DNA of 64,000 nt from Pseudodesulfovibrio nedwellii (GTDB taxonomy: Bacteria > Desulfobacterota > Desulfovibrionia > Desulfovibrionales > Desulfovibrionaceae). Below, in pieces: positions 32,835 to 51,896 of this stretch; position 1 is the first letter of the stretch; the number at the start of each line of letters is the position of its first letter. The stretch lies in assembly GCF_027923765.1 (NCBI RefSeq), contig NZ_AP026709.1, positions 925,501-989,500 on the forward strand, in the 5' to 3' direction. Under the pieces are notes generated by a model. The model saw only the letters and a list, made by a program, of their open reading frames with translations, made no database searches and was not told the origin of the DNA. A program made the translations under genes and the position numbers.

Positions 32835-34516
32835 TGCGCTATAAGCTGCAAATGATGGATACGGACTTCGGAGTCGGCATGTTCGCCGCCATGCCGGACG
32901 CCAATCTGAGTTTCAACGAAATGACAGACTATCTGCGAAAGCACCCGCATGACGACTACATGCATGAATTCGTGCTTCAGGGATTCAAGGATTTTCGTAC
33001 CCGCAAGCTTCAGAAGCTCATCAAAGAAGCGATGAAGGACAAAGGGCAGTCCGATCCAATTCTCACCGCTGTCATGTATGAAGCGTGCATCTGCCATTCT
33101 CGACAAGCTCCCCTGCTTCCCTTATTTGACGGTCTGGACCCGGCAGCTTTGCTCGACTTCACCCCGGCTATCCACATCCGATCCCGACTCGTAAAAGATC
33201 AACCGCTGCATCGCGAATGGATCAATCTTTTTGGGGAAAACATCTTCACCCTGGCTCCGCTGCCCGCACCTGAAGACGCACCAGAACCGCTGTATTCGCA
33301 AACCGACTTGGACTTACCCACTTCAATCTCCGCAAGCGTGATACGCAAAGAACTGAACAGTCAACTCCCGCCAGCTAAACCTCGTTGCCCGCTGGAAGAA
33401 ACAATTGAACGAGCCTTCGGAGCACTAGACAAAGCGGATGCCTTCCTTGGGCCGGTCATGGCACACAAGGCCTCCTTGTCGCCCATAGCCAGCCTGCGTC
33501 ACTGGATGGTCAAAACGCGCTCGGTGAACGGAACGCTTTCTAATTCACTTGAGGGTATCCAAACGAGTTACGGTCGAGGCTTGTCCCGAAAACAGGCAGA
33601 CGCTTCCTGCTGTATGGAAATGGCCGAAAGATTCTCTTCATACGCCAGCGCCAACAAAGACGGTCTTGTCGGTTACAAACAAAAGTACCCGCTGACATAT
33701 GGAACATATGACGAATTAAGCCAGGACGCGATCAATCCAAACGACGTTCGACTGGAAGTCCCTTACGCAAGTCAAAAACTCCATTGGTTGGAAGGCCAAC
33801 GACCAGATGGAAACGGCGGGACAACATCCATCCTGATCCCGGCCCAATTTATATTCCTTTTCTGTAATCTGGACGAACAAAGTCTGTTCAGCGCCCTAGG
33901 TTCTACTGGATTAGCCTCAGGCAACACCATTACCGAGGCTAAAGTCGCCGCCCTGACAGAAGTCATCGAACGAGACTCTGATGCCACCATGCTCTACGAC
34001 CCAAAACGTTGTTTCCACATTGAAACAGATGACCCGGAAATTTCCAAATTGCTGGACGGCTACAAGACTGACGGCATCGACGTCTGGTTCATGGACATGA
34101 CCACGGAACTCGGCGTGCCCTGCTACAAATCTGTCGTCCTCGGCAAGCATGGCGATGTAAACAAAGGGGGCGGTTGCAGCCTGAATGGCCAATCCGCCCT
34201 GGTCTCTGCCTTAACTGAAACAGCATATCCGTACCCAGGCCCCACAAGCGGACCGGCACCGGAAGGCCTTGAAACCAGACGCCTTGAAGACCTGCCTAAT
34301 TATTCCACTGGAAGCGCAAAAGGCGATCTCATGGTCCTCGAAAAGACCCTCATGGCCAATGGTTACACTCCAGCCTACGTAGATATGACCCGCAAAGACC
34401 TAGATATCCCTGTCACCCGTGCCGTCATTCCCGGCCTTGAGCTTATTTCCGACTTCGACCAATACTCCAGAGTCAGCCCCCGACTATTCCAAAATTATCT
34501 AGCAATATTCAAATAA
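32834..34516 (+). CDS. Standalone YcaO-domain protein
   Basis: A 560-residue protein. The YcaO ATP-binding signature is present as ADASCCMEMAERFSSY (SxxMExxER type) and KVAALTEVIERDSDATML (ExxER), with further AMP/Mg-contact stretches in the last third (PCYKSVVLGKH, GGGCSLNG). YcaO enzymes use ATP to activate amide backbones for azoline or thioamide formation; E. coli YcaO assists RimO in ribosomal S12 modification. There is no partner cyclodehydratase, TfuA or precursor peptide visible, and the C-terminal Pro-rich tail of azoline-forming YcaO is absent. N-terminal 180 residues are an unrecognised region. Follows the GDSL gene in the same operon. Confidence 0.85.
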   Translation: MRYKLQMMDTDFGVGMFAAMPDANLSFNEMTDYLRKHPHDDYMHEFVLQGFKDFRTRKLQKLIKEAMKDKGQSDPILTAVMYEACICHSRQAPLLPLFDGLDPAALLDFTPAIHIRSRLVKDQPLHREWINLFGENIFTLAPLPAPEDAPEPLYSQTDLDLPTSISASVIRKELNSQLPPAKPRCPLEETIERAFGALDKADAFLGPVMAHKASLSPIASLRHWMVKTRSVNGTLSNSLEGIQTSYGRGLSRKQADASCCMEMAERFSSYASANKDGLVGYKQKYPLTYGTYDELSQDAINPNDVRLEVPYASQKLHWLEGQRPDGNGGTTSILIPAQFIFLFCNLDEQSLFSALGSTGLASGNTITEAKVAALTEVIERDSDATMLYDPKRCFHIETDDPEISKLLDGYKTDGIDVWFMDMTTELGVPCYKSVVLGKHGDVNKGGGCSLNGQSALVSALTETAYPYPGPTSGPAPEGLETRRLEDLPNYSTGSAKGDLMVLEKTLMANGYTPAYVDMTRKDLDIPVTRAVIPGLELISDFDQYSRVSPRLFQNYLAIFK

Positions 34517-34525
34517 CTAAAACCA

Positions 34526-34553
34526 TTGACGTCCTGCCTTTTTGCGGGATAAT
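34526..34553 (+). promoter_or_regulatory. Promoter of tRNA-Leu
   Basis: TTGACG (34526-34531), 16-nt spacer, GATAAT (34548-34553), 15 nt before the tRNA 5' end; good spacing for a stable-RNA promoter. Confidence 0.65.
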
Positions 34554-34568
34554 GAAACAAATCTTCAC

Positions 34569-34655
34569 GCCTGGGTGGTGGAACTGGTAGACACCAGGGA
34601 CTTAAAATCCCTTGATCGCAAGGTCGTGCGGGTTCAAATCCCGCCCCAGGTACCA
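34569..34655 (+). tRNA. tRNA-Leu (TAA)
   Basis: 87 nt including CCA. Acceptor GCCTGGG pairs with CCCAGGT (one G-T). The anticodon loop CTTAAAA gives anticodon TAA, and a long variable arm TGATCGCAAGGTCG is typical of class II tRNA-Leu. It forms the left boundary of the proposed island; its 3' half is repeated at 43879-43930. Confidence 0.97.
34603..34655 (+). repeat. Left attachment-type repeat (3' half of tRNA-Leu)
   Basis: Segment from the anticodon loop to CCA. It matches 43879-43930 at about 45 of 53 positions by eye, including GGTTCAAATCCC, CTTGATC and TACCA. Direct repeats of a tRNA 3' end at the two borders of a block are the mark of tyrosine-integrase insertion. Confidence 0.7.
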
Positions 34656-34662
34656 GAAATTG

Positions 34663-34697
34663 AAAGGGCTTTTGAGATTCTCTCAAAAGCCCTTTTT
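34663..34697 (+). terminator. Terminator of tRNA-Leu
   Basis: Perfect stem AAAGGGCTTTTGAGA / TCTCAAAAGCCCTTT with a TTC loop and T-run, 8 nt after the tRNA. Confidence 0.9.
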
Positions 34698-34955
34698 CTA
34701 TGAAAATTATTTTGTACACTCACTGTACAACCATATCATTTGATAAGAGCCATCAAGCCTCGCTCGTCTTCCATCTTATTCATAAATTGAATACTATACC
34801 CAAAAGCGTGCCATCCCGTCATCTCCTTCAATTACGTATCATCGCAGTTGTAGTGATAAAACAGGTACTTAGAAGGGATTCCCGAAACAAACAAAGAGGT
34901 GGCCTCGGTTCTTCGGGCCACTGAGCAGCGAATTTAAGGTGGACGAGTTTACGGG

Positions 34956-35587
34956 TTACGCTGCCTTTTGATTCCAAGCCAGAGGGGGTACCCCCTCTGG
35001 CTTGGAATTTTGATATACATCCATCGGCTTTATTTCGTCAAAAGTGAAATGAGGCCGACGATTATTATAGAAATCAAACCACCACGCCAATGCCTCACGC
35101 AGCTCACTTCCTGTACGACAATCGCCAAGAGAGAACTGCGCGACTGTGCCAGTCCATGACAGCTACGAGATACAGGAATCCACGTTTCATGGGGATATAC
35201 GTAATGTCCGTGCACCAAACTGGGTTCGGCTTTGTGATCGGCAGATTTCGAAGCAAGTATGGATAAACCTTATGCCCAGGATGAGGCTGGCTCGTTCGAG
35301 GCTTTTGATAGACAGCCATCAAACCCATTTTTCGCATCAGCCTCCTCACCCGCTTTTGACCAACAGAATCCCCCGTATCTCGCAGGATATTCCGCATTTG
35401 TCTGGAGCTGAAAAACGGCAATTCCATAAACAACTCATCAATCTTCCGCATCAATACAAGATTGAGCAGAGACTCGCCGATGGCTGATAATAGTATGTTG
35501 ATCTTTGTAATTGCAGAACTTTGCATTGTCGTCGAACGCTGAGATTTGGATGCCCGTTGTCGACGACCTTGTGCCTTCGCCCGCAGC
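34956..35587 (-). pseudogene. IS3 transposase orfB, frameshifted and internally deleted
   Basis: In the -1 frame relative to orfA it reads NLSVRRQCKVLQLQRSTYYY, the usual orfB start. A single missing base near 35475 shifts it to the frame with NLVLMRKIDELFMELPFF and VWCTDITYIPM, where the first catalytic Asp is present. Near 35120 the reading jumps from AVMDWHSRAVLSWRLS to ELREALAWWFDFYNNRRPH, so about 100 residues containing the second Asp and the Glu of the DDE triad are gone. It ends LAWNQKAA at 34956. It cannot encode an active transposase. Confidence 0.8.
34971..35008. repeat. 38-bp perfect palindrome
   Basis: Two 19-nt arms with no spacer, centred on GGTACC between 34989 and 34990, inside the 3' end of the IS orfB remnant. 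In RNA it would fold into a very stable hairpin. Confidence 0.9.
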
Positions 35588-35872
35588 TCAAATTTTGGCG
35601 AAGGCTTGTTGCAAAAAATCCTTCTCCACAGTCAACTGGCCGATCTTTGCATAAAGATCCTTGATCTGCGCTTCGTTGTTTTGTGGGATATTCTTGGTCT
35701 TGCCGGAAAAGGATTCGACGATCTCTTCCTTAGCTTGTTTCTTCCACGTGGAAATCTGGTTGGGATGAACGCCATGTTTGCTGGCCAGTTCTGAAATCGT
35801 GTGTTTACCGGACAATGCATCAAGTGCGACACGGGCTTTGAACTCTGCTGAAAAATGTCTTCTTTTGGACAT
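35588..35872 (-). CDS. IS3-family transposase orfA
   Basis: A 94-residue protein with an intact helix-turn-helix: MSKRRHFSAEFKARVALDAL, then HTISELASKHGVHPNQISTW, and a leucine-zipper-like C-terminus (IKDLYAKIGQLTVEKDFLQQ). It binds IS ends and, fused to orfB by -1 frameshifting, forms the transposase. GGAGG lies upstream of the ATG at 35872. With orfB destroyed, it can at most act as a regulator or competitor for other copies. Confidence 0.88.
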   Translation of the reverse strand: MSKRRHFSAEFKARVALDALSGKHTISELASKHGVHPNQISTWKKQAKEEIVESFSGKTKNIPQNNEAQIKDLYAKIGQLTVEKDFLQQAFAKI

Positions 35873-36171
35873 GATCGAGCCTCCTTCGACGACTATATGT
35901 CCACCTAAACAAGTGGTCCAGTTTTCTGAGGCCACCTCTAAGAGCCCCCCCATGTGAAGGTGTGCTCTTCGTTTAACTACAGATTGCCACCCAATAAATT
36001 TTAATGGTCCACATATGACCACAGCCGCTTGCAGACACGTTTCCTGTATGAATGCGTCAGGCTATTAGCCCCAAAACATCTTGCCATGGCCCAAATATTC
36101 GCCACTACTCAGGCTCAAAAAAACGTACACGCCTTGACGCCCCCGTCATCAGATGTTGAATATACTCTCCC

Positions 36172-36993
36172 ATGAAGTATATAATAGTATTAAGCCATTT
36201 GATGGGACTTTCGCTGCTGCTCCTAACGAACGTCGTTGGGTGTGCGCGAAGCGATGTGGTTGCATCAATGGCGTTAGACTCAACTTGGAACCGCCTCGAT
36301 TCAGGTGGACCTCTACCTGCTGTTGGCTGGATGCGAGGGCAAGGCGATGTTGTTCATATCTATATTGAAGGCGACGGCGTGGCCTACTCCACGCCTACAA
36401 CTCCTTCTCTCGATCCAACACCCATCACCCCTACAGCGTTACTTCTGGCCCGCGTAGACGATGCAGCTGCCGTGGCATATGTCGGTCGCCCTTGCCAATA
36501 TATATCAGGAGATTCCTGCACCAATAAAAGCTGGACCTCTGGGAGATTTTCCGAGGCGACTTTACAAACCGAGAACAGTCTTGTGAATGCAGCCAAAAAA
36601 TCGGCTAATGCAAAACGTGTAGTCTTAGTCGGGTTTTCAGGGGGCGGAGCAGTTGCAGCCCTGTTGGCCGAGCGGCGAACGGATGTCGCAGCACTGATTA
36701 CTGTCTGCGGCAACCTCGACCATGCTGTGTGGACAGCCATGCACAATCTTACGCCACTTTACGGATCACTTAATCCAACAGAACACGTCAAACGACTTTC
36801 TTCCCTACCGCAAGTGCATTTCTTGGGCGCGGCAGATACCAACATCAACACAAAAGTTACAAACTCTTTTGTAGCAAAACTCGGCCCAGATGCCCCTGCG
36901 ACGGTCCATATAGTGCCAGAGTTGGCGCATGGGGGCGAAGACTGGGCAAAAGCGTGGCCTGAATTACTTCACGAGTTGCGCTTGAATAACTGA
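36172..36993 (+). CDS. Lipoprotein alpha/beta hydrolase
   Basis: A 273-residue protein. The N-terminal MKYIIVLSHLMGLSLLLL leads to the lipobox-like VVGC (Cys24), so it is probably a lipoprotein. The nucleophile elbow GFSGGGAVAALLAE is at about residues 146-159, and ELAHGGEDWAKAWP near the end carries the candidate catalytic His. A HIYIEGDGVAY strand matches the first core strand of the fold. Likely an esterase or acyl hydrolase of unknown substrate. It stands alone in the island, upstream of the LAL regulator and in the same direction. Confidence 0.75.
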   Translation: MKYIIVLSHLMGLSLLLLTNVVGCARSDVVASMALDSTWNRLDSGGPLPAVGWMRGQGDVVHIYIEGDGVAYSTPTTPSLDPTPITPTALLLARVDDAAAVAYVGRPCQYISGDSCTNKSWTSGRFSEATLQTENSLVNAAKKSANAKRVVLVGFSGGGAVAALLAERRTDVAALITVCGNLDHAVWTAMHNLTPLYGSLNPTEHVKRLSSLPQVHFLGAADTNINTKVTNSFVAKLGPDAPATVHIVPELAHGGEDWAKAWPELLHELRLNN

Positions 36994-37082
36994 TCTCGAC
37001 GTTTTCACACACAACCTGTATTATATTAAGAAAATGCGTAACGCTCTTTACATTCGAACTTTATTCAGGCGATATTCACTTC

Positions 37083-39590
37083 ATGCGAACACTCTCCTCT
37101 TCAATTGACACCTCGACTCTATACCACAGCCAGCGACTGATGCGTGCCCTTTCCGTGATTCACATCAAGCCAATCTCGTTCATTCATGCCCCCATGGGGT
37201 ACGGGAAGACTGTCGCCGTTAGAGAATACCTTCAGAAAGAAAAAATTCAGACCATCTGGGTTTCCGTATTAACCAAAGATAAGGACGCCTTTTGGCGAGA
37301 CTTCTGCTGTGTGCTTCGTAAAAATTTGCCCAGAGAAGTCGATGTTCTGGAAGCTGTGGAAAAACTTGGCTACCCCACCGATCCCGTAAAAATGGACACA
37401 GTCCGAGGTATGTTCGCCCGTCTGAATTATCCCTCCAAAGCAGTACTGGTTTTTGACGATGTGCACCTTTTGCAGGAATCAGAGGCTGGACAGCTTATTC
37501 AACTTTGCCTGCTTCTCGCTCGCCAAGGCGTTTTCCCTCCGATTGTATTCATTTCTCGCCATGCGCCGAGTCAAATGCTCGCAGAACCTTTACTTAAGGG
37601 GATTATAACGGAAATCGGCCCCACCTTTTTTGCACTTAACAAGAAAGAAATGCAGGCCTACTTCAAACAATGCGGCATCTTGCTAGATGAAACGGATACT
37701 GCAAAATTGCTCAAGGCGACAGGCGGCTGGATAAGCGCATTGTATCTGTATCTGCTGCATTATTCTCAGCATGGAAAAATGGCAGCTCCCACGGGACTAT
37801 CAGCACTGTTGACAAATCAGGTCTTCGACAAACTGCAAGATGAGACAAGGCACCTGCTTATAGCTCTTTCTCCTTTGGAAAAATTCACCGTACATCAGGC
37901 AAGACTCTGTTATGATAATGCGGAGGCAGTCCTTACAGATATCCTACGTCGTAATGCATTTATCAGCTACGATTCGACGACAGAAAGTTACATACTTCAC
38001 GCTCTGTTCCGAGATTTTTTGCTACAACATTTTAAAACATTGCCGGTGGGACAGCAGCAAAAAATCTATCTGAATAATGCCAAATGGTTAATTGAACATG
38101 ACGAAATACGAAAAGCAGTCAAACTCCTAAAGGAAATTCACGACGACACTGAGACACTCGATCTATTGGACACAGTAGTTGAACACCTGCCTGTCACGGA
38201 AGGAAACGGCCTGTTGATGGACCTTTTCCGTACATGCAGTCCGGATTCCATGAATCAATATCCCGGCGTCATGTTTCGATATGCCATGGCAGCCCTCAGC
38301 TCCAAGGATCTGCCAACTTTTTCTGACTTACTTGCTCGCCTGGGACACTATTGCTCCTCCTTACCCGAGAATGATCCGACAGCTAACGGTTGGAAAGGTG
38401 AGATGGAGCTTTTACGCGCTTTCACCAAGTATAACGATATCGTGGCCATGTCGGCCCACCACAAACGGGCTGCACAATTTTTCCAGCAATCGGAAAACAA
38501 TGGCAGCCGTCTTTCAGGACAAGACCCATGGACTATGGGATCTCCTTCGGTTCTATATATGTTTCATAGAAAAAGCGGGATGTTGGAAAAAGAACTGAAA
38601 CAAATGCACGACTGCCTGCCACAATATTCGCAACTCACAGGTATGCACGGAGCCGGAGCGGAAGATATCATGTTGGCAGAGGCGTTATATAATGCCGGGA
38701 AATTCGAATCTGCCGCTATCGCCAGTCATCAGGCTCTGTCAACGGCTCAGACGTACAAGCAAATTGACATTGAAGTATGCGCTCTTTTTCTACTTGCCCG
38801 ATTAGAAATGCAACATGGTGAATACGACAAATCCATAAATCAATTACAAATCATGCGAAAACGTGTGGAAGAAGAAAAGGCCTTTTCTCTGCTGCAAACA
38901 ACGGATTTATGCACTGGTTTTTTGCATATGAGTATTCACCGACCGGAAAAAATCCCCAATTGGTTGCTGCAAGACGGTGAAAAGAAACTCTATGCTTTCG
39001 CCGGGGGCTGGGCCTACATTGTGTTTGGTGGTACCTTGTTACTCAACAGGGAATACGCAAAATTGGTTGCCCACTTTTCTCGCCTTATACAAAAGGGCAC
39101 GTACCGCCAAAACATCATGTTCTCCATCTATGCAAATCTATTTATTGCTGCGGGTAACACGGGGTTGGGTTTATATGCAAAGGCGGACACAGCGCTCTTT
39201 GCCGCTCTTGAATTAGCACTGCCGGATAAAATATATATGCCCTTTGCAACAAACTCCACATTTTTGCCACAGCTGAAAGGCCTGAAAGACGACGATTCAT
39301 ATGGCTACGATATTCACCGCATCTTGCAACTGTCCACCAAGTTGGAAAAAGTCCGCAACGGTATCATTTTCCGTTTTTTTTCAAAGGTCACTCCTTCTCT
39401 CACTCCTCGGGAAAGCGAACTTGGACGATTGGCCATGACCGGTATGACATATAAAGAAATCGCCGGTGCCGCCGGTTTGGCTCCGAATTCTGTTAAACGC
39501 TATTTTGCCGCCTTGTATAAAAAACTCGGTATAAACAATCGAGAACAGTTAAAAAATTACTTTTTGAAGCAAGAAAACAATATTTTTTAA
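37083..39590 (+). CDS. MalT/LAL-type LuxR-family transcriptional regulator
   Basis: An 835-residue regulator. An N-terminal STAND ATPase has Walker A APMGYGKT (about 36-43) and Walker B AVLVFDDVHLL (about 120-130). A helical TPR-like middle region (about 340-760) follows. A C-terminal LuxR helix-turn-helix contains LTPRESELGRLAMTGMTYKE then APNSVKRYFAALYKKLG. In this family an inducer and ATP trigger oligomerisation and activation of a nearby regulon. Its position upstream of the autotransporter, FecR and Sel1 genes suggests those are the targets. The ATG at 37083 has a weak site. Confidence 0.9.
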   Translation: MRTLSSSIDTSTLYHSQRLMRALSVIHIKPISFIHAPMGYGKTVAVREYLQKEKIQTIWVSVLTKDKDAFWRDFCCVLRKNLPREVDVLEAVEKLGYPTDPVKMDTVRGMFARLNYPSKAVLVFDDVHLLQESEAGQLIQLCLLLARQGVFPPIVFISRHAPSQMLAEPLLKGIITEIGPTFFALNKKEMQAYFKQCGILLDETDTAKLLKATGGWISALYLYLLHYSQHGKMAAPTGLSALLTNQVFDKLQDETRHLLIALSPLEKFTVHQARLCYDNAEAVLTDILRRNAFISYDSTTESYILHALFRDFLLQHFKTLPVGQQQKIYLNNAKWLIEHDEIRKAVKLLKEIHDDTETLDLLDTVVEHLPVTEGNGLLMDLFRTCSPDSMNQYPGVMFRYAMAALSSKDLPTFSDLLARLGHYCSSLPENDPTANGWKGEMELLRAFTKYNDIVAMSAHHKRAAQFFQQSENNGSRLSGQDPWTMGSPSVLYMFHRKSGMLEKELKQMHDCLPQYSQLTGMHGAGAEDIMLAEALYNAGKFESAAIASHQALSTAQTYKQIDIEVCALFLLARLEMQHGEYDKSINQLQIMRKRVEEEKAFSLLQTTDLCTGFLHMSIHRPEKIPNWLLQDGEKKLYAFAGGWAYIVFGGTLLLNREYAKLVAHFSRLIQKGTYRQNIMFSIYANLFIAAGNTGLGLYAKADTALFAALELALPDKIYMPFATNSTFLPQLKGLKDDDSYGYDIHRILQLSTKLEKVRNGIIFRFFSKVTPSLTPRESELGRLAMTGMTYKEIAGAAGLAPNSVKRYFAALYKKLGINNREQLKNYFLKQENNIF

Positions 39591-39752
39591 CCATCCGCCT
39601 GTTTCGTCGTTTTACTCAAACAATTCAACCTAAAATATTTTTTCTTAAGACCCAAAAGACAACATCTATCTGCCCTACTTTTCGATCACACAAAAATGTG
39701 CATAAGAAGTGAGGCAAATATTTTCAAGAAGTCAGTATTCTTTCACTCATCT

Positions 39753-39791
39753 AAAAGAACGGCATTGGAGCATATCCAATGCCGTTCTTTT
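39753..39791 (+). terminator. Terminator of the LAL regulator gene
   Basis: Perfect 17-bp stem AAAAGAACGGCATTGGA / TCCAATGCCGTTCTTTT with a 5-nt loop, followed by a T-rich stretch. Confidence 0.9.
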
Positions 39792-39969
39792 CTTGTTCGT
39801 TTCACTGAAGGAAATAATCGAAATTTTTCATACACAAACAAGAAGATGCAACACGAAATAACATTCGCCACTCTCATTATTTTTTAAAGGCCCGCCCACG
39901 TTGTTAACCGCCGACATTAGTATAAATAAATTTTCTTTAATAAGCACTCAAAATAAATGAATTTTATTC

Positions 39970-39994
39970 GCGATATCACCCAAGGTGATATTGC
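39970..39994. promoter_or_regulatory. Inverted repeat, candidate operator
   Basis: ATATCACC-CAA-GGTGATAT, extended by GC on both sides with one G-T. It lies 178 nt upstream of the autotransporter start and could be the site of the LAL regulator. It is not followed by a T-run, so it is not a terminator. Confidence 0.4.
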
Positions 39995-40171
39995 GACCCA
40001 AAAATCAAATGGGTACTAGGCAATTTATGTCTTCATATTTCGATCTACAATCTAAAAAAAGACTATAAAAACAATACGCTGAATCGACATTTTATTTGCC
40101 TATAGAAACTGAAATTCTGTCCAAACTGCGAAAACAATAGCGACACAGACGTCTACCTAAGGAGATTCCCC

Positions 40172-42250
40172 ATGCGGCCTATCTACCATATTATTTTCTC
40201 TCCAAGCCGTCTCGCCCTTTTAATTTTATTGCCCATGCTCCTAGCCCTGCTCCAGTGCTTACCAGCCCAGGCGGTCAGCCTTACCCTAACTGAGGGCTCT
40301 AATAGTGCTATTAGCGGCGACGGTTCCACCGTTATTATCAATCGAAACAATAACATTTACGCAAGCCCCAGTTCCCTCGGCAGCAGCACCCTCATAGATT
40401 CTTCAGCCGAGATTGTTGGTATATCACAAGACGGGTCTCATATTCTTGGAAAGAAAAATTCGAGTTTTTTTTATATATACTCCGGGACGAATCACCAAAC
40501 AACAACTTTTTTGACTCCGCTAATAGCAACCCCGGACTTAGCAGGGATCAGTTCAGATGGTCATGCCGTTTTCGGTTCACGGCTTAGTGTCGGCGCACCA
40601 AATGAAGCATTGATAGCGGTATCCTCCGACAACTGGACCACTGCAGGTGGTATTACTGATTATTCGATCTCGTACGGTCCCACAGGGTCAATGCCCGCAC
40701 TCAATGCCATCAGCAACAACATCGCTGGCGTAAGAACAGCAGTAGGAACTATGGCAAACAAACCAATGATATGGAAAACACCCACCGTCGGAACTACTTT
40801 GGTTGACACGCCTTTATCCCTTGGGAGTTATACTAGTGGGTCCGCACGGGACATCACCGACGATGGATCGACGGCAGTCGGATATGTCATAGAAACATAC
40901 CGTCATGCAGCTAAGTGGGATATAACGACCAATTCACTGACTGTTCTCCCGTCCGGTGGCTATCATAACAACCTCGCTCGTTTTGTTAACAAAAACGGTT
41001 CAGTCATTGTTGGTGATGTTTGTAGTGCAATCTCAGAAGTAGCCATTTGGACAGAAAATGGTAACTCCTACACGGTTCAAACGCTTTATGACGCTCTCAT
41101 AAGCAAAGGCGTACAAACGGACCCCAATAATTATTTCATGACCGCCACAGGCTTAAGTGACGATGGCGACCTCATTACGGGACAGAGAGCTGATAGTACA
41201 ATATTCATTGCCAACCTTGGCGCGGGTGGAGTGATCACCACTGACCAGCTTAACCAATCTCTGGCAACCATGGGGCAAGTCGGATCAGCGGTTTCCGGAA
41301 TGGGCCAGCTTTCCATGAGCCGTCTGGGCAACGTGGCGGGCGGACAAGGCGCACATTTTCACGTAACCACCCCCGGCACCGAGACTGCCGGAGGTGGAGC
41401 CGAACGGGGCCTGTCGAGCGGTGATGAAATGCCGGGAAGTATGGACCTGTGGGTCATCGGCTCCGTGGGATCAAACATTGAGCTGAACGGCGATGACCTC
41501 GGTCTGCGCGGCGGTGTCGGCCTCACTTGGGACAACGGCAACGAATGGCGTTTCGGTGGCGGCCTATTTGGTGACATGCGGGATTTGAAGACAAATCACG
41601 GTGGCGACCAAAGTATCCGAGCCATCGGACCCGGTGTTTTTGCCGTCTACTCTCCGGAACAAACCGGATTTGAATTCCGCCTGTCTGCTTTATGGCAATC
41701 CGTGGCGCTAGACCTGACACGAGGCTATGCCAATGGCGCAGGAAGTGCCACTTCATCCGGCTCCACAGACGCAAATGTCTTCGGTCTTTCCGGTCGAGTA
41801 CAGTGGACAAAAAACATGACCGATTCTTTCGACCTGACGCCTTTCGCCGAATACACTTGGCAAACCACGCATATCGACAGTTACTCAGAATCCGGGGGCC
41901 CTTTCCCGGCCAGCTTTGAAAGCCGAACTGAAACATCCAACTCTATCCGGGCAGGCCTTAGAGCCGACGCGGCCCTCTTCGACAAAGTCGGCACTTGGGC
42001 CTGGTTGGCCTGGGATCATCGCTTTGAGGACTCCTCCGCAGGTATGGGCGGCAGCACAATCGGCTTGGGAGCGTTCACCTATCCCGGCGCAAAATTGGAC
42101 CAAGACTGGGCCGATGCGGGTGTAGGTGCAAGCTGGGACATCACTGAACGTTTGGAAGCTACTTCCAGCCTCGGATTCGCCATGGGGTGTGACGACGAAA
42201 CCGTCCCCGACCTCACCGCCACCATGGGGCTCAGCTATCAACTCTGGTAG
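40172..42250 (+). CDS. Autotransporter with DGS beta-repeats
   Basis: A 692-residue type Va-like secreted protein. The signal peptide is residues 1-35 (LLALLQCLPAQAVS). A passenger of about 370 residues carries repeated I-S-x-D-G-S-x-x-x-G units (ISGDGSTVII, ISQDGSHILG, ISSDGHAVFG, DITDDGSTAVGY, NKNGSVIVG, LSDDGDLITG), which predict a beta-propeller or beta-sandwich. A linker follows, and a C-terminal barrel of about 260 residues ends in the outer-membrane signature YQLW. The start has AAGGAG 7 nt upstream. It is the first of three genes (with FecR and Sel1 proteins) inside the island. The passenger's role is unknown. Confidence 0.88.
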   Translation: MRPIYHIIFSPSRLALLILLPMLLALLQCLPAQAVSLTLTEGSNSAISGDGSTVIINRNNNIYASPSSLGSSTLIDSSAEIVGISQDGSHILGKKNSSFFYIYSGTNHQTTTFLTPLIATPDLAGISSDGHAVFGSRLSVGAPNEALIAVSSDNWTTAGGITDYSISYGPTGSMPALNAISNNIAGVRTAVGTMANKPMIWKTPTVGTTLVDTPLSLGSYTSGSARDITDDGSTAVGYVIETYRHAAKWDITTNSLTVLPSGGYHNNLARFVNKNGSVIVGDVCSAISEVAIWTENGNSYTVQTLYDALISKGVQTDPNNYFMTATGLSDDGDLITGQRADSTIFIANLGAGGVITTDQLNQSLATMGQVGSAVSGMGQLSMSRLGNVAGGQGAHFHVTTPGTETAGGGAERGLSSGDEMPGSMDLWVIGSVGSNIELNGDDLGLRGGVGLTWDNGNEWRFGGGLFGDMRDLKTNHGGDQSIRAIGPGVFAVYSPEQTGFEFRLSALWQSVALDLTRGYANGAGSATSSGSTDANVFGLSGRVQWTKNMTDSFDLTPFAEYTWQTTHIDSYSESGGPFPASFESRTETSNSIRAGLRADAALFDKVGTWAWLAWDHRFEDSSAGMGGSTIGLGAFTYPGAKLDQDWADAGVGASWDITERLEATSSLGFAMGCDDETVPDLTATMGLSYQLW

Positions 42251-42347
42251 TAGGAATTTTAAATCAAGCAACCAATCAAACCTTAAAAATCATACGATTT
42301 GAGAACCGCAACCATCTATTAAATAAATATAAAGGCATGGTCTTCTG

Positions 42348-43259
42348 ATGAAACTGGTAGCGAAGGTACAATATCTCTTCTTCTTGGTCCTGTTGCTTGT
42401 CTGTTCGGTTCCGGTTTTATCTTTCGCAGCAGACTTGCCCGATGCCATCGGTGAAGTGGTTTCCATAATGGGAACTGCGACAGCAACCCAACCTGATGGA
42501 GCCATGCGCACATTGGACTTGAATGCTCCGGTAAGAACCAAAGATGTCATAAAAACCGGGTGCAAAAGCAATATTGAAATCGTTTTCAAGGACGATTCCG
42601 TATTTTCGCAAGGCCCGGATTCCAGCACCTCCCTGGATGAATTCGTGTATTCCGCAACGCCCTCTGCATCCAAAATACTATTAAAAGCCGGAGTCGGAAC
42701 GCTTCGCTACGTAACTGGTCAAGTGGTCAAGCAGAACCCTGATGCTTTTGCTCTCGTAACTCCAATGACGACAATAGGCATTCGAGGCACTGAAGTATTT
42801 GCCGAACTTACGAAAGAACAGGAAGAAATCGGCGTACTTTCCATAGCTCCCGGACATGTGGTCGAAGTCTCTACCTCCAAAATGCAGAAAACCATTTCAA
42901 GAGCCGGTTTTTCCGTAAAGGCAGCTCCTGACGGAGGTTTGAACAATCCATCCCCCACAGCTCCGGAGACACGAACCAGAGTTATCAAAGCCGCCCCTCA
43001 GACCACACAGGGAGAAACAAGCGATGCCCAAAGCAAAACCGACAAAGACCGCAAAATCAATGCGTTTGCAGCGGCCATTAGCCGAAGCAAAGGAAATCTC
43101 GGTGGACTCAATCAGCATCCAAATTACGGAAATCTTAATAATATAACTTTGCAAAAAAGTGCCCACAAAGCAGCTGAATCCGATCAATCCTCAAATAATG
43201 GAGCAGGCCTCGGTAGCGACGGTCCTGCCGATGTCGACGATATGTACGGTGATTATTAG
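42348..43259 (+). CDS. FecR-domain periplasmic protein
   Basis: A 303-residue protein with a signal peptide (LSFA-ADLP, about residue 28). A FecR-like domain spans about 30-170: the PVRTKDVIKTGCKSNIEIVF strand and AFALVTPMTTIGIRGTEVF, which is the most conserved block. The C-terminal 110 residues are Ser/Asn/Gly-rich and likely disordered. Unlike true FecR there is no membrane helix and no iron-siderophore gene nearby, so the name reflects fold only. It sits 97 nt after the autotransporter, and may bind its passenger or a surface ligand. Confidence 0.8.
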   Translation: MKLVAKVQYLFFLVLLLVCSVPVLSFAADLPDAIGEVVSIMGTATATQPDGAMRTLDLNAPVRTKDVIKTGCKSNIEIVFKDDSVFSQGPDSSTSLDEFVYSATPSASKILLKAGVGTLRYVTGQVVKQNPDAFALVTPMTTIGIRGTEVFAELTKEQEEIGVLSIAPGHVVEVSTSKMQKTISRAGFSVKAAPDGGLNNPSPTAPETRTRVIKAAPQTTQGETSDAQSKTDKDRKINAFAAAISRSKGNLGGLNQHPNYGNLNNITLQKSAHKAAESDQSSNNGAGLGSDGPADVDDMYGDY

Positions 43260-43311
43260 GCCAGAATGAAATGAAACTGCATAATGATGCATTCGAAGGA
43301 GGTTGTAAAAA

Positions 43312-43857
43312 GTGAAGGGACGTTATCTCAAACACATCCTGATTCTTACATTCCTGATGATATTTCTGACCGGCTGCATGAGCGTCATGGTCGAACGTCA
43401 GGGAACCAAGGCATATATGAAAAAAGATTATACTACTGCCCGCCTGAAGTACGAAGAAGCCGTGGATCAAGGCAATTCTAACGCGATGTATCATCTCGCT
43501 GTAATGTATGCGGAAGGCCAAGGCGTCCCACAGGATTACCCCAAGGCCGCCGGCCTGCTTGAACAAGCTGTTGATCAAGGAAACAACAACGCCCGACTCA
43601 TGTTGGGATTGTTTAATATCTACGGTGACGGCATCCCCCAAAATCCCGACAAAGGCGCGACCTTAATTACTGCCGCGGCCGATGACGGCAACGACACAGC
43701 AATGTATTATCTGGCCAACTTGTATGCTGCGGGCCTTGGCGTAGGCAGAGACCTCAACAAAGCCGAATACTGGATGCATGAGGCAAAAAGTGCAGGATTC
43801 CCGGTCAAAGATAAGCTTCTGACACAGGAAGGTCTTGCGACTTTATACGAATTATAA
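43312..43857 (+). CDS. Sel1-repeat lipoprotein
   Basis: A 181-residue lipoprotein: the signal ends LMIFLTGC with Cys22 as the lipid site. Three Sel1-type repeats follow, with recurrent AMYHLAVMYAEGQGVPQDY, ARLMLGLFNIYGDGIPQNP and AMYYLANLYAAGLGVGRDL. Sel1 repeats are protein-interaction helices. Start codon is GTG at 43312 with AAGGAGG about 9 nt upstream. Last gene of the island before the tRNA-Leu remnant; with the FecR protein it is a probable accessory to the autotransporter. Confidence 0.88.
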   Translation: MKGRYLKHILILTFLMIFLTGCMSVMVERQGTKAYMKKDYTTARLKYEEAVDQGNSNAMYHLAVMYAEGQGVPQDYPKAAGLLEQAVDQGNNNARLMLGLFNIYGDGIPQNPDKGATLITAAADDGNDTAMYYLANLYAAGLGVGRDLNKAEYWMHEAKSAGFPVKDKLLTQEGLATLYEL

Positions 43858-43878
43858 TGAACGTTTATATAAACGCCT

Positions 43879-43930
43879 CAAAATCACTTGATCACAAGAT
43901 TGTGCAGGTTCAAATCCCACCCCAGTACCA
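43879..43930 (+). repeat. Right attachment-type repeat (decayed tRNA-Leu 3' half)
   Basis: Degenerate copy of the tRNA-Leu 3' half (see 34603-34655), lacking one acceptor G and with G-to-A style changes in the T and variable arms, so it no longer encodes a functional tRNA. The 5' half is absent. Confidence 0.7.
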
Positions 43931-43932
43931 AA

Positions 43933-43974
43933 AGTAAAGGGCTTATGTCTTATAACATAAGCCCTTTACTTTTT
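43933..43974 (+). terminator. Terminator after the tRNA-Leu remnant
   Basis: Perfect 16-bp stem AGTAAAGGGCTTATGT / ACATAAGCCCTTTACT with a 6-nt loop and T-run. By position it would be the original terminator of the displaced tRNA-Leu gene; it can also end the Sel1 transcript. Confidence 0.85.
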
Positions 43975-44594
43975 GATGAAAATTATGAAATCGTACCAAA
44001 CGAAATATCAAAAAATCGTAAGTATGACAAATGCTTTGAATTATTAAAACTAATTTAAACTCTAGATAGGATTAAAGACATGAACTGGTGGACAACACTT
44101 CCTGTTTTTTAGAAAGGCTTTATTGGTGGAGGAATTTCTGTCCCCGCCGCCATTATTTTTATTAAAATCATACTCAAATTCGTTATTCGCAGGGAAAAAC
44201 CACACAATAGCACCAACTAATTTTAAGAAGTATCCCCCCCCTCACTCCTTATCCAAAACTGGCAATATTAGAATTGACCTTTTATTTGAGACCACAGGTC
44301 ACCTTTTGCTGACGCCCCCCTACACACTGACACCCTGTTTAGGCCAACACTCTGTATTAGACAAAACCCCGCGCTAACCGTGGGGATAGGTTGTCGTCTT
44401 CACTCTTGATCAAAAGAAAAATCACCTCCCGGCTACGCCATGAAGAAAAACTACAAAAACATCAAAAATGGTATAGATGGCAAGACAAAACCTCCTTCAG
44501 AAGAGGGACATGTAGTATTGCTATCTTTTAGTAAAGAAAAATAAATCATTAATTACAGTTATATATAAGTATTAACCAAAAAGAGAAAGTCATA
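43975..44594. other. 620-nt AT-rich region without a supported gene
   Basis: Contains a possible broken 46-codon frame (44080-44220) and a weak 34-codon frame (44440-44544) without a ribosome site. Nothing else recognised; likely relic sequence next to the island. Confidence 0.55.
44080..44220 (+). pseudogene. Small membrane-protein-like frame interrupted by TAG
   Basis: Reads MNWWTTLPVF, then an in-frame TAG (44110-44112), then KGFIGGGISVPAAIIFIKII and a basic end before TAA at 44218. The second part is hydrophobic and protein-like, which is why it is listed. A weak AGG precedes the ATG. It is more likely a decayed small gene than an amber-recoded one. Confidence 0.3.
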
Positions 44595-44630
44595 TTGACA
44601 CAATGTCGTAATAATGTTGTAATTTTACAA
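44595..44630 (+). promoter_or_regulatory. Promoter with HexR-like palindromic operator
   Basis: TTGACA (44595-44600), 17-nt spacer, TGTAAT as -10 (44618-44623). The -10 is embedded in TTGTAATTTTACAA (44617-44630), with TTGTAA/TTACAA arms. This resembles the published HexR consensus TGTARTTWTAMTACA. It lies 47 nt before the RpiR-type gene, so autorepression is likely. Confidence 0.6.
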
Positions 44631-44677
44631 GAACGACTGACTAACGTGTCAAACAGAGGCTTCATTAAGGGGATCAC

Positions 44678-45517
44678 ATGGATATTTTTGAAACAATTCG
44701 TTCAGAAATGCCTACAATGCGAAAATCTGAACAGAAGGTAGCAGACCTTGTTTTAAGGTCTCCTGACGTTGTCATGAATGGTTCCATCTCCGAAGCCGCC
44801 ACACTGGCCGAGACCAGTGATCCTACGGTTGTCCGTTTTTGCAAACAACTGGGCCTAAAAGGATTCATGGAGCTCAAGCTTCGTCTCGCCAGTGCACACC
44901 CTATCGATAAAACAGTCCTCGAAGACATCACCGAAACCGACTCGGTCAACTCCATCTTTACCAATGTCATGCGCTCTGTGGTCGAGGCTGTAAGCAGCAC
45001 AGAACGAGGCATGGACCGGCGTATGCTGGAAGATGCAGTGGACACTATGGTTGCCGCCACCCGCTGGGAATTTTACGGCATGGGCGGTTCCGGTGTCATC
45101 GCGCTCGATGCACATCATAAATTTTTCCGTCTCGGCGTCTCTTGTGTTGCCTACAACGACTCTCACATGCAAGTAATGAGCGCAGCCCAGCTCGACGAAA
45201 ACGCCGTCGCGGTTGTCATATCCCACTCAGGTGCCACCAAAGACATCATCGAATCCGCCGAAATAGCGAAAAAAACCGGCGCCAAGGTTATCGGCATTCT
45301 GGGCAAAAAGAATTCTGAAGTCGCAAAACACTGTGACATCCCGTTGTGCGTTTCCTCTCGTGAAATAGCCCTTCGACTCGCCCCCAAAGCTGGCAGGCTC
45401 ATGCAGCTTGCCCTTCTCGACACGCTCTTCGTGGCCGTAGCAATGCGCCTTGTCAATGAAGAAGGCTTCGACCGCCTCGACAAGGTGAAACGTGCCCTTC
45501 TCGGAAAAATAATTTAA
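44678..45517 (+). CDS. RpiR/HexR-family transcriptional regulator
   Basis: A 279-residue repressor-type protein. The N-terminal RpiR helix-turn-helix domain (about 1-75) contains MRKSEQKVADLVL, then TLAETSDPTVVRFCKQLG. The C-terminal SIS domain (about 120-260) has the sugar-phosphate motif FYGMGGSGVIALDA and VVISHSGATKDIIE. HexR of gammaproteobacteria responds to KDPG and controls the Entner-Doudoroff genes. Here KDPG aldolase and KDG kinase lie in the same run 3 kb downstream, which makes KDPG or KDG the likely effector. The promoter has a matching palindrome. Confidence 0.9.
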   Translation: MDIFETIRSEMPTMRKSEQKVADLVLRSPDVVMNGSISEAATLAETSDPTVVRFCKQLGLKGFMELKLRLASAHPIDKTVLEDITETDSVNSIFTNVMRSVVEAVSSTERGMDRRMLEDAVDTMVAATRWEFYGMGGSGVIALDAHHKFFRLGVSCVAYNDSHMQVMSAAQLDENAVAVVISHSGATKDIIESAEIAKKTGAKVIGILGKKNSEVAKHCDIPLCVSSREIALRLAPKAGRLMQLALLDTLFVAVAMRLVNEEGFDRLDKVKRALLGKII

Positions 45518-45603
45518 TCATGCCGGTCCATTCGGACTCGTATGAAAAAATAGGTGTGGTATTAATAAATTGCGGTTCAATCATCAAAAATCAGGAGGAT
45601 TCT

Positions 45604-46410
45604 ATGCGTAAAATCTGGTTACTGTCTGCCCTGGCACTCATCATGACTTTCGGCCTCGGTTCTGTCGCTTCCGCCCAGACAGATCTTCTGGACAAAATCA
45701 AAAGCGACGGCAAAATCGTCATCGGCACCACTCTGGCTGCCCCGCCTTTTGCCTATCGTAACGACAAAGGCGAGCCCGAAGGTTTTGAAATTGATCTGAT
45801 GAACAAGCTCGGCGAGTACATGGGCGTTGAAGTTGAAGTTGCAGACATGGCATGGGGCGGCCTGATTCCTGCCCTGCTTTCCCAGCGTATCGACCTGATC
45901 GGTGCTCGCATGTCCGCCACTATGGAACGCGCTACCAAAGTCGTTTTCGCTCACCCCTGGCTCATGACCGGTACTTTCGCTGTTGCCCGCGACGGCAAAG
46001 GCTACAAGTCCTGGGAAGACCTGAACAAACCCGGCGTAAAAATCTGTGCGATCGCTGGCGCCATCGGTGCTACCGTTGCCAAGAAAAAACTCCCCAATGC
46101 TGAACTCGTCACCTATGAACTGGACGGCGACCAGCTGAAGGCTCTCAAAGACGGTCGTGTTGACGCTGCCCTGAACGATGAACTCATCGTCATGAGCTTC
46201 CCCCAAAAGGTCAAAGGCCTGACCATGCTCGAAGGCAACATCCAGCCTGACGCATATGCATACGCAGTTCGCCCGGACTTCGAATCCTACCGCATGAAGA
46301 ACTGGCTCGACCTGTTCTTCGCCACCATCATGCGCACCGGCGAATATGGTGAAATCTACGAGAAATGGCTCGGCAAGCCTTGGCAGGCCGACTGGAACAT
46401 GCATCCGTAG
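45604..46410 (+). CDS. Periplasmic substrate-binding protein, family 3 (polar amino-acid type)
   Basis: A 268-residue mature-type protein with a signal peptide (SVASA-QTD, about residue 24). KSDGKIVIGTTLAAPPFAYR and EPEGFEIDLMNKLGEYMGVE are the classic family-3 N-terminal elements; DLIGARMSATMERATKVVF and the C-terminal YGEIYEKWLGKPW also fit. It delivers a ligand to the two permeases downstream. Start ATG at 45604 with AGGAGG; the upstream extension to 45520 is not translated protein. Family 3 members bind amino acids and related zwitterions, and the neighbours suggest an amino-bearing sugar acid. Confidence 0.92.
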   Translation: MRKIWLLSALALIMTFGLGSVASAQTDLLDKIKSDGKIVIGTTLAAPPFAYRNDKGEPEGFEIDLMNKLGEYMGVEVEVADMAWGGLIPALLSQRIDLIGARMSATMERATKVVFAHPWLMTGTFAVARDGKGYKSWEDLNKPGVKICAIAGAIGATVAKKKLPNAELVTYELDGDQLKALKDGRVDAALNDELIVMSFPQKVKGLTMLEGNIQPDAYAYAVRPDFESYRMKNWLDLFFATIMRTGEYGEIYEKWLGKPWQADWNMHP

Positions 46411-46430
46411 ACGATACTGACACATGTCAT

Positions 46431-46463
46431 CGGGGCAGGGGAAATCCCTGCCCCGTTTTTTCA
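46431..46463 (+). terminator. Attenuating terminator after the binding-protein gene
   Basis: Stem CGGGGCAGGG / CCCTGCCCCG with GAAAT loop and TTTTTT. It sits between the binding-protein and permease genes, a common way to make more binding protein than membrane components. Confidence 0.85.
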
Positions 46464-46484
46464 CCTGTTAAAACGGTCTAAATA

Positions 46485-47144
46485 ATGAATTACGATTTCA
46501 ACTACCAGATGATGGTCAATTACATGCCTGATATTATGACAGGCTTGCAAAATACCATCCTCATTTCTCTTATCAGCATCGTACTCGCCGTGGTGTGGGG
46601 TGTCATGGTCGCATTGGCCCGCCTCTCACACAAGCCATGGCTGAAACGATCAGCAACCGCTTACGTGGAGTTCATCCGCTCAACACCACTTCTGGTGCAA
46701 GTGTATTTTCTCTTTTTTGGTTTGCCGGAATTCGGTATCATCCTGCCCGCCTTTCTGGTGGGTGTAATGGCTTTGATGCTCAACTCTGGTGCCTATGCCG
46801 CCGAAATTATTCGAGCGGGCATTGAGTCCATCCATACAACTCAATATGAAGCTGCAGACTGCCTGGCAATGTCGTATTCGCAAAAAATGCGGTACGTAAT
46901 TTTACCCCAGGCATTTCGAAACATCTTTCCTCCGTTAATCGGACAAGCGTCCTATCTGGTCAAAGACTCAGCTCTTGTTTCTGTTATGGGCGTCGTCGAT
47001 CTGACCAAGGCTGCCGCCGTTACTCAGGCTGTAACCTTCCGTCCCATGGAAGCATTCCTGCCTGCAATGGTATTTTACCTCGTCATCATCCTGACTCTTA
47101 TCTACGGGACCTCGTTCCTCGAAAAACGCATGAGGAGATGGTAA
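46485..47144 (+). CDS. Amino-acid-type ABC permease (first)
   Basis: A 219-residue HisM/GlnP-like inner membrane protein with about five helices. TALGLQNTILISLISI-type start (GLQNTILISLISIVLAVV), the ATPase-contact EAA loop YEAADCLAMSYSQKMRYVIL then PQAFRNIFPP, and FIRSTPLLVQVYFLFFGLP are family hallmarks. It pairs with the next permease, which begins 4 nt downstream, to form a heterodimeric channel. Confidence 0.93.
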   Translation: MNYDFNYQMMVNYMPDIMTGLQNTILISLISIVLAVVWGVMVALARLSHKPWLKRSATAYVEFIRSTPLLVQVYFLFFGLPEFGIILPAFLVGVMALMLNSGAYAAEIIRAGIESIHTTQYEAADCLAMSYSQKMRYVILPQAFRNIFPPLIGQASYLVKDSALVSVMGVVDLTKAAAVTQAVTFRPMEAFLPAMVFYLVIILTLIYGTSFLEKRMRRW

Positions 47145-47148
47145 GATA

Positions 47149-47808
47149 ATGGATATACTTTCATTGACCGGCAACCTCTTTGTCCTCCTTGCGGAACGAG
47201 GACTGCCCGCGACCCTTCTTCTGGCCGTAGCAGGCTTCGTCATAGCCATACTCTTCGGTGTTTTTACTGGCCTCGTCCGGTTCCTCAAAATACCAGTACT
47301 CTCACAAATTCTTCGCATTTATGTCGATTTCATGCGAGGGCTGCCTTTCTTGATGATTCTGTTCTTTCTGTTCTACGTGCTGCCGTTTTTCGGCCTACGG
47401 CTTTCCGCCCTGACAACAGGTATTTTAGCTCTGTCTATGCATTCGGGGGCGTATGTCTCTGAAATCATCCGCAGTGCTTTACAGTCCATTCCCACAGTTC
47501 AGCACGAAGCGGCAAAAGTACTAGCTCTGACCACATACCAACGTTTGCGGTATGTCATCATCCCGCAGGCCTTCAAGCTAACACTACCGCCCCTTTCCGG
47601 GCAGATCGTTCTGCACATCAAGGACACGTCCGTTGTTTCTGTCATTGCTTTGACCGAATTGACCCGTGTGGCTCGGGTTCAGATGCAGTCCAACATGGAA
47701 CCACTGATTACATTCGCGGTCCTGTCCGTGTTTTATTTTGCGCTCTGCTACCCGATTCTCCACCTTTCCGCGAATCTGGAAAAGCGGCTCAAACAAAAGA
47801 CTACTTAG
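47149..47808 (+). CDS. Amino-acid-type ABC permease (second)
   Basis: A 219-residue paralogue of the preceding permease with the same plan: RGLPFLMILFFLFYVLPFFG, the EAA loop HEAAKVLALTTYQRLRYVII followed by PQAFKLTLPPLSG. It starts 4 nt after the first permease and ends 16 nt before the ATPase gene. Together they form the membrane pore of the importer. Confidence 0.93.
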   Translation: MDILSLTGNLFVLLAERGLPATLLLAVAGFVIAILFGVFTGLVRFLKIPVLSQILRIYVDFMRGLPFLMILFFLFYVLPFFGLRLSALTTGILALSMHSGAYVSEIIRSALQSIPTVQHEAAKVLALTTYQRLRYVIIPQAFKLTLPPLSGQIVLHIKDTSVVSVIALTELTRVARVQMQSNMEPLITFAVLSVFYFALCYPILHLSANLEKRLKQKTT

Positions 47809-47824
47809 TTTCAAGGAATATATT

Positions 47825-48559
47825 ATGCCTATAGTATCTGTTAATAATCTCCACAAAAGCTTCGGAGCCCTTGAAGTGCTTCGAGGTGTCAACTTTGATG
47901 TTGAACCCGGAGAAACCGTCATCTTTGCCGGTCCCAGCGGCTCAGGCAAATCAACCCTGCTCCGTTGCCTTAATGGTCTCGAAAAAATTCAGGCTGGCGA
48001 AATCATTGTCGACGGGACATCCGTTCACGCGCCGAATACAGACCTGCTCGACCTGCGTCGCAGAGTTGGCATGGTCTTCCAGAGCTTCAACCTGTTCCCG
48101 CATCTGACCATCATGGAAAACATCACCATGCCTTTGACCAAGGTCCTGAATAAGGAATTGGATGAGGCCCGCGAAATCGGACAATCCCTGCTGAAAAAAG
48201 TCGGCATCGTGGATAAGGTCGATGTTTACCCGGACAATCTTTCCGGCGGCCAGCAACAGCGTGCGGCAATAGCACGTGGTCTGGCCATGAATCCCCATGT
48301 CATGCTGTTTGATGAACCAACTTCTGCGCTGGACCCGGAACTGACCGGCGGTATTTTGGACGTCATGGACGAACTCAGCAACTCAGGAATGACCATGCTT
48401 GTCGTCACTCACGAAATGGGTTTTGCCCGCAAGGCTGCTGACAGAATGATCTTCATGGACGGTGGAGTTATCGTTGAAGAAGGCGCACCAAGTCAGCTTA
48501 TTGACAATCCGCAGAATGAACGCACTCGTCAATTCATGCACCAGATTTCCCACGACTAA
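47825..48559 (+). CDS. Amino-acid-type ABC transporter ATPase
   Basis: A 244-residue GlnQ/HisP-like ATPase: Walker A AGPSGSGKSTLLRCL, Q-loop MVFQSFNLFPHLTIMENI, signature LSGGQQQRAAIARGLAMNP, Walker B VMLFDEPTSALDPE, and the H-switch VVTHEMGFARKAADRMIFMD. It powers the two permeases. Start ATG at 47825 (MPIVSVNNLHKSFG); the frame is open upstream, but that part overlaps the permease. Confidence 0.95.
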   Translation: MPIVSVNNLHKSFGALEVLRGVNFDVEPGETVIFAGPSGSGKSTLLRCLNGLEKIQAGEIIVDGTSVHAPNTDLLDLRRRVGMVFQSFNLFPHLTIMENITMPLTKVLNKELDEAREIGQSLLKKVGIVDKVDVYPDNLSGGQQQRAAIARGLAMNPHVMLFDEPTSALDPELTGGILDVMDELSNSGMTMLVVTHEMGFARKAADRMIFMDGGVIVEEGAPSQLIDNPQNERTRQFMHQISHD

Positions 48560-48582
48560 TCAAGCACATACAAGGAAAGACT

Positions 48583-49503: not shown

Positions 49504-49512
49504 GAGCTAACC

Positions 49513-50538: not shown

Positions 50539-50562
50539 CCACAAGTATCACAGGAAAAAATT

Positions 50563-51711: not shown

Positions 51712-51766
51712 CAAAGAATCGACCGTTTCCTTCCTAGGACACGGATATCCCGATCAATCAATGCTT

Positions 51767-51800
51767 AAAGGCCCGGAAGGTTTTCCTTCCGGGCCTTTTT
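51767..51800 (+). terminator. Terminator of the transporter/eda/kdgK operon
   Basis: Stem AAAGGCCCGGAAGG / CCTTCCGGGCCTTT with TTTT loop and T-run, 55 nt after the aminotransferase stop. Confidence 0.9.
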
Positions 51801-51841
51801 GTCTGTCATTTATAGCAAAACAATACACCAGATATGAGAAA

Positions 51842-51882: not shown

Positions 51883-51896
51883 TACATTTTGATTAA

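Follow-up and report, generated by a model that had tools for sequence, protein, structure and literature searches.

A probable remnant of an integrative element in the tRNA-Leu(TAA) gene of Pseudodesulfovibrio nedwellii

Why should the 3' half of a tRNA gene occur a second time, 9.2 kb downstream of the intact gene, with a terminator of its own? The question is raised by the tRNA-Leu(TAA) locus of Pseudodesulfovibrio nedwellii, in a window of 64,000 nucleotides (the whole stretch of DNA analysed; G000:C1:925501-989500) from a genome that is a single contig of 3,762,062 bases. The original prediction, made from the letters of the window, was of an old insertion that had lost its mobility genes and whose distal tRNA copy is decaying. 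We conclude, with a probability of about 0.93, that the block between the two copies is the decayed remnant of an integrative element inserted site-specifically in the 3' part of tRNA-Leu(TAA). The features at the two ends of the block are listed here, with congeneric genomes given by their handles.

34569-34655, + strand: intact tRNA-Leu, anticodon TAA (ARAGORN); the 5' part is chromosomal and the 3' part lies in the duplicated core.
34599-34655, + strand: direct repeat on the attL side, whose 57-base core starts in the anticodon stem/loop and runs through the last base of the gene, as in the perfect repeats of G025 and G033.
34656-34702, + strand: terminator hairpin 3' of the working tRNA, probably brought by the island (fold -23.1 kcal/mol, z -5.5); it differs from the terminator at the empty site of G034.
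43875-43930, + strand: attR, the probable original 3' end of tRNA-Leu, decayed by 8 substitutions and 1 deletion relative to the 57 bases.
43931-43976, + strand: probable original tRNA-Leu terminator (fold -25.4 kcal/mol, z -8.2), of the same sequence type as at the G034 empty site.

The distal copy comprises 56 bases that match the 57-base tail of the tRNA gene, and ARAGORN calls no tRNA at this site. A whole-genome search (3.76 Mb) with positions 34560-34700 at E <= 0.001 returned three matches, namely the query itself, the distal copy (E 7.9e-14) and the complement of the terminator. The distal copy is not a chance resemblance: its local score is 38, and 300 shuffles reached no more than 14-15. 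Both the imperfect recurrence of the tRNA 3' half and the separate hairpin after each copy, as originally described, are thus borne out.

Comparison with relatives that lack the block and have one continuous tRNA-Leu had been named beforehand as a check. The tRNA region could be taken from 29 of 34 matched congeners; the window strain and the same-species strain OB3 (G060; Pseudodesulfovibrio sp. OB3, JADGEX010000001.1; YcaO protein 98% identical) bring the set to 31 genomes. OB3 was the useful one of four loci obtained in a scan of genome contigs. In congeners where a single match covers both genes, tRNA-Leu(TAA) lies 3' of ycaO. The best match among the 34 congeners, G034, has a ycaO-tRNA segment 90% identical to that of the window, and its tRNA-Leu is single and continuous, followed by the window's distal-type terminator, a short open reading frame (ORF) and an RpiR-type gene. 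When the window is cut into tiles of 500 bases, G034 is matched on the left as far as the tRNA terminator, where tile 34331-34830 aligns over 365 bases, and on the right starting with the distal tRNA copy; the tiles lying in between have no match at the G034 locus. Because this empty site carries the window's distal terminator, the distal copy is best read as the original gene end, and the terminator of the working gene as brought by the insert.

The same site is occupied differently in other species. In G025 the insert is a different one, 7.9 kb long, with a perfect distal copy (57/57) at its far end and the same right flank beyond it; a Phage_integrase protein is encoded directly 3' of the tRNA, and a MobA/VirD2-type relaxase (Pfam) is also present. 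In G033 a perfect distal copy stands at 8.9 kb, and the integrase, whose domain is confirmed by Pfam, is by eye very similar to that of G025. An empty site in G034 and an integrase-bearing occupant in G025 agree with the predicted history of insertion, loss of mobility genes and decay of the distal tail. The original prediction had also named two outcomes that would count against it; instead, relatives do not all carry the same genes at this place, and the repeat is that of this tRNA-Leu and not of an unrelated tRNA array.

Distal copies were found in 10 of the 31 genomes (nine with the genome's own tRNA as query, G022 only with that of the window), and the tRNA-Leu(TAA) locus is therefore a hot spot. 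The matches begin at tRNA base 27-36. G025 and G033 have the same limits of the repeat core, and in G015, G024 and G017 the limits fall within four bases of these. The 3' half of the working gene is clearly unlike the distal remnant in G022, G012 and G023, as expected if the tail of an element replaces the gene end. Integrase-like ORFs occur in five of the 31 stretches, those of the seeds G025, G033 and G012 together with G017 and, near its distal copy, G015. Integrase-bearing elements use the same site in G025, G033, G012 and G017, with Pfam confirmation in G025 and G033.

Some occupants have more complicated ends. In G012, three distal tRNA-Leu copies lie about 0.9, 14.9 and 45 kb 3' of the tRNA (L053; G012:C1:77182-77246) and are probably islands stacked at one site. 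At L043 (G018), L102 (G020) and L053 (G012), a tRNA-Leu(TAA) 5' half that breaks off at about base 39-46 has its start 0.1-0.25 kb upstream of the intact gene; it is possibly the head of the original gene, left behind when an element arrived with a whole tRNA gene of its own.

Standard tRNA islands integrate within the segment from the anticodon to the 3' end of the gene, where the incoming tail completes the gene and the old tail becomes attR; for integrative mobilizable elements this mechanism is described in PMC5704250. A comparable course is proposed here. Site-specific recombination into the 3' part of tRNA-Leu(TAA), most likely by a tyrosine integrase, would have duplicated the 57-base tail, and the incoming copy would have completed the tRNA gene and given it a new terminator. 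The original tail would have been displaced downstream, to the 9.2 kb now seen in the window strain and to 17.7 kb in OB3, measured from the tRNA to the distal copy, where it would decay for lack of selection. The distal copy of OB3 has the same nine changes as that of the window, and one extra. Loss of the integrase, which would have frozen the insert, probably preceded the split between the window strain and OB3; an IS3 element would then probably have replaced a 9.5 kb oxidoreductase part in the window strain. The remaining surface-protein cluster, exchanged with a sister species, is probably ordinary host cargo.

As originally stated, there is no integrase between the tRNA copies: none of the 18 places at which the Phage_integrase model (PF00589) matches the genome at E <= 0.01 falls there. 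A model made from the three hot-spot integrases matched no ORF of at least 60 amino acids in the window stretch or in OB3, and Pfam searches of the block's seven main ORFs gave no relaxase. Since the block has no integrase, we describe it as a remnant rather than as a mobile island. Its left part consists of two features.

34656-34895, no strand: island left end, shared with OB3.
34896-35942, - strand: IS3-family element, with orfA at 35588-36022 and an orfB fragment at 35104-35526; both ends were placed by eye.

A TTGTACA/TGTACAA pair at 34712-34730 may represent putative integrase arm sites, and the first ~150 bases of the island resemble the sequence adjoining tRNA-Leu in G019 (local score 46, a value without shuffle control). 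The insertion sequence (IS) remnant reported originally could be assigned to the IS3 family; its orfB is truncated, and it is internally changed relative to a fuller copy elsewhere in the genome. Window positions 34895 and 35940 correspond to OB3 629568 and 639079, and OB3 has 9.5 kb where the window has its IS3. This module encodes a molybdopterin oxidoreductase (best curated model TtrA, 457 bits, far below the cut-off of 1750), an NrfD-type membrane protein, an iron-sulfur protein, a phosphonate-type binding protein, a sigma-54 activator and, by eye, a rhodanese-like protein. Because the IS3 element lies at the junction and is internally changed, we read the difference as an IS-associated loss in the window strain, where the module was probably removed via IS3 in what would be an IS-driven deletion. 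It may instead have been gained in OB3.

The last 1.36 kb of the sigma-54 regulator gene in this module (OB3 C51:637611-638967, the 3' part) has a counterpart of 92-93% identity at a second locus in OB3 (C51:1340282-1341638), in the window genome (G000:C1:1527896-1529251) and in G034 (G034:C1:1037132-1038487). An IS3 copy lies 1.4 kb from this second locus in OB3 and 12 kb from it in G000, where an integrase with an internal stop is also found at a distance of 1.2 kb.

To the right of the IS3 element, the window strain retains five cargo genes.

36172-36993, + strand: alpha/beta hydrolase (Pfam DLH 23.3 bits, cut-off 21), with a lipoprotein-like start by eye.
37083-39590, + strand: large LuxR-family (MalT-like) regulator of 835 amino acids (GerE over cut-off; MalT model 131 bits, cut-off 537).
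40172-42250, + strand: autotransporter of 692 amino acids (Pfam Autotransporter).
42348-43259, + strand: FecR-domain protein (domain search).
43312-43857, + strand: Sel1-repeat protein, which stops 17 bases before the distal repeat.

Judged by these domains, the cargo may specify a regulated surface protein with envelope partners. The autotransporter is about 50% alike in its N-terminal part and 91-97% alike in its beta-domain when compared with the G034 allele, and it has the highest rate of nonsynonymous change (dN) in the cluster between the two strains (0.032); it looks like a diversifying surface protein. With respect to base composition, for which a comparison inside and outside the island had been proposed, the result is divided. 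Overall GC gives no foreign sign (47.3% between the copies vs 47.7% in the whole window, with a drop to 41.9% in the 2 kb tile at 38.5 kb), whereas GC at third codon positions (GC3) is 44.7-53.8% in the five cargo genes and thus below the 55.4-56.6% of three flanking genes. Base composition was set aside as proof of foreign origin, since overall GC is equal while GC3 is lower.

The cargo has close counterparts at other tRNA-Leu genes. Except for the first part of the autotransporter, window 36133-43849 is colinear with G034 1329102-1321373, which lies elsewhere in the chromosome, with the Sel1 end of the cluster 0.6 kb downstream of tRNA-Leu(GAG) #1. G025 has the cluster minus the autotransporter, 0.3 kb downstream of the other tRNA-Leu(GAG) gene of this pair (#2), and in the window genome the cluster is missing from both GAG places. 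The TAA gene in the window species, GAG #1 in G034 and GAG #2 in G025 are thus each occupied in one species, which lacks the cluster at the other two. Relative to the working tRNA, the orientation of the cluster at the GAG loci is the reverse of that at TAA, and no tRNA-Leu remnant scoring above shuffles was found at its far ends in G034 or G025. Because the GAG loci have no repeat ends and the orientation is reversed, the three occurrences do not represent one element integrated three times by one rule.

Synonymous divergence (dS) shows that part of this cargo moved recently between species. Between the window and G034, dS is 0.071 for luxR and 0.074 for fecR; between the window and OB3 the same genes give 0.086 and 0.062, and four genes outside the cargo give 0.075 (ycaO) and 0.005-0.015 (three right-flank genes). 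The OB3 perm2 row is a wrong match. The background between the window and G034 has a median of 0.544 over 24 ORFs from two loci (at least 150 amino acids, with at least 80% identity over 70% of the length), all but one at 0.235 or more. These limits bias the set toward low dS; ORFs failing them were left out and their number was not counted, and the ORF at 59902-60624, with dS 0, was kept in the median. As luxR and fecR lie far below this background, at the level found between the two strains of one species, they were exchanged between the window species and that of G034 after the two split. Nor are they slow genes, since against G025 their dS of 1.05-1.18 falls within the range of nine other genes (0.59-1.41). 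Vertical relocation as the whole history of the cargo was considered and is made unlikely by these values.

Several observations weigh against the reading of the block as a decayed integrative element with travelling cargo. Only one species shows the colinear empty site; most of the other congeners have a different right flank and neither confirm nor deny it. No distal copy was found in 21 of the 31 genomes, although the stretch searched 3' of the tRNA varied from 0.5 to 30 kb per genome, so that the occupancy counted here is a minimum. Neither PF00589 nor the hot-spot integrase model revealed a remnant of an integrase in the block. Cargo dS against G034 is uneven (hydrolase 0.24, sel1 0.19, autotransporter 0.65), and as the cargo is at host GC overall and colinear with a G034 cluster elsewhere, part of the block may postdate the insertion. 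The link with tRNA genes is also incomplete. G026 and G027 have a full-length LuxR relative with no tRNA in the 20 kb taken from each, the hydrolase and autotransporter lie away from tRNA-Leu in G033, G003 and G016, and in G012 these two genes are placed between tRNA-SeC and tRNA-Glu.

The cluster beside tRNA-Leu(GAG) in G034 and G025, and its lack at both GAG places in the window genome, would also fit a non-site-specific origin, in which rearrangement or homologous recombination between tRNA-Leu genes moved a G034-type cluster from GAG to TAA and duplicated a piece of tRNA on the way. We consider this very improbable. The duplicated piece is tRNA-Leu(TAA) itself, and its limits match those of the repeats around the integrase-bearing inserts in G025 and G033; at the cluster's far ends in G034 and G025, as described, no tRNA-like piece scores above shuffles, its orientation is reversed there, and OB3 holds further genes within the same limits. 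A copying of the tRNA-Leu 3' end and its flank during replication, later parted by the accumulation of genes, is less credible still. Such a local duplication would explain why the distal copy is partial and decayed, but the empty site largely contradicts it, as the entire block is missing in G034, where the tRNA is single. Moreover, the terminators are not alike, and it is the distal one that G034 has; other species share the core limits, exactly or within four bases. Site-specific insertion followed by decay remains our preferred explanation.

A further idea, which we regard as unlikely, concerns the cargo alone, namely that the hydrolase-LuxR-(autotransporter)-FecR-Sel1 cluster, lacking its own integrase, travels as a passenger that repeatedly settles at tRNA-Leu 3' flanks and is swapped between species. 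A LuxR gene is found beside tRNA-Leu in three of the five species that have one (G000/OB3, G034 and G025). The cluster could perhaps be a non-autonomous cassette, carried by passing tRNA-Leu integrases or by recombination at tRNA-Leu flanks. In G025 an integrase about 8 kb from the cluster (C1:1048254-1048763) is a putative core recombinase; among the matches listed, single strong matches of similar score occur in other genomes.

The right flank has features of its own. A block with RpiR, amino-acid ABC transporter, aldolase and kinase genes and a giant ORF (window 43977-61900) is shared at this locus with G034 and partly with G025. The ortholog of window 61977-63803 lies 1.3-4.6 kb 3' of the tRNA in G022, G006, G013 and G027, and 14 and 18 kb 3' of it in G032 and G002, respectively. 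The block may represent an earlier round of insertion or loss at this hot spot; a tRNA-Leu query on the window gave no older attR near 61.9 kb. About 1 kb at 59331-60330 is 99.4-99.6% identical to G034, with nearby tiles at 88-96%, which could reflect either a recent exchange or strong conservation where the giant ORF (51897-60053) begins. In the window strain, a stop at codon 11 interrupts the short ORF 3' of the distal terminator (44080-44205; MNWWTTLPVF..., about 40 amino acids, membrane-like by eye), which OB3, G034 and G025 keep open over the part that was translated.

Taken across the genus, one locus displays several stages in the life of an island: empty in G034, occupied with integrase and perfect ends in G025 and G033, holding stacked copies in G012, and with an integrase-less island in OB3 and a shorter, IS-associated form in the window strain. 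The terminator of the working tRNA-Leu(UAA) appears to be derived from the element, as does apparently the 3' half of the gene in three congeners, so that a gene serving translation would be partly of element origin. The island is of an ordinary kind, with an unusually well documented history and with surface-protein genes that have close copies at tRNA-Leu genes of sister species. The recent exchange of cargo between species that hold the cluster at different tRNA-Leu loci is the part that deserves dedicated study.

A search of open-licence papers gave nothing on this locus, which we file among decayed tRNA-integrated islands similar to cis-mobilizable elements (CIMEs), a kind already known. 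PAPI-1 is an island found in two tRNA-Lys genes, and the cargo described here resembles it in that one gene set occurs at different tRNA genes of one amino acid. It differs in that the isoacceptors are different (TAA and GAG), the orientation varies and the GAG loci have no repeat ends. Several islands of Klebsiella pneumoniae share one asn-tDNA gene and a recombination module (PMC4891358). Several different islands likewise occur at the same tRNA gene here, but a single tRNA-Leu(TAA) locus serves different species of one genus, and the window member is integrase-less with a decayed attR. CIMEs keep attL and attR and have lost the genes for integration and transfer (PMC5704250). The window island is similar in having two att-like ends around cargo and no integrase found; unlike a CIME so defined, it has an attR with 8 substitutions and 1 deletion, and no intact parent with this cargo was found. 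These changes in attR make mobilisation of the island in cis doubtful. Such mobilisation would call for a second element integrated in tandem; within the genus, stacked distal copies are seen in G012. The same review describes integrative mobilizable elements that integrate at tRNA 3' ends (PMC5704250), and on that description the G025 element looks like one. The cargo proteins of the window have no match in the G025 element; the two share the same 57-base attachment core.

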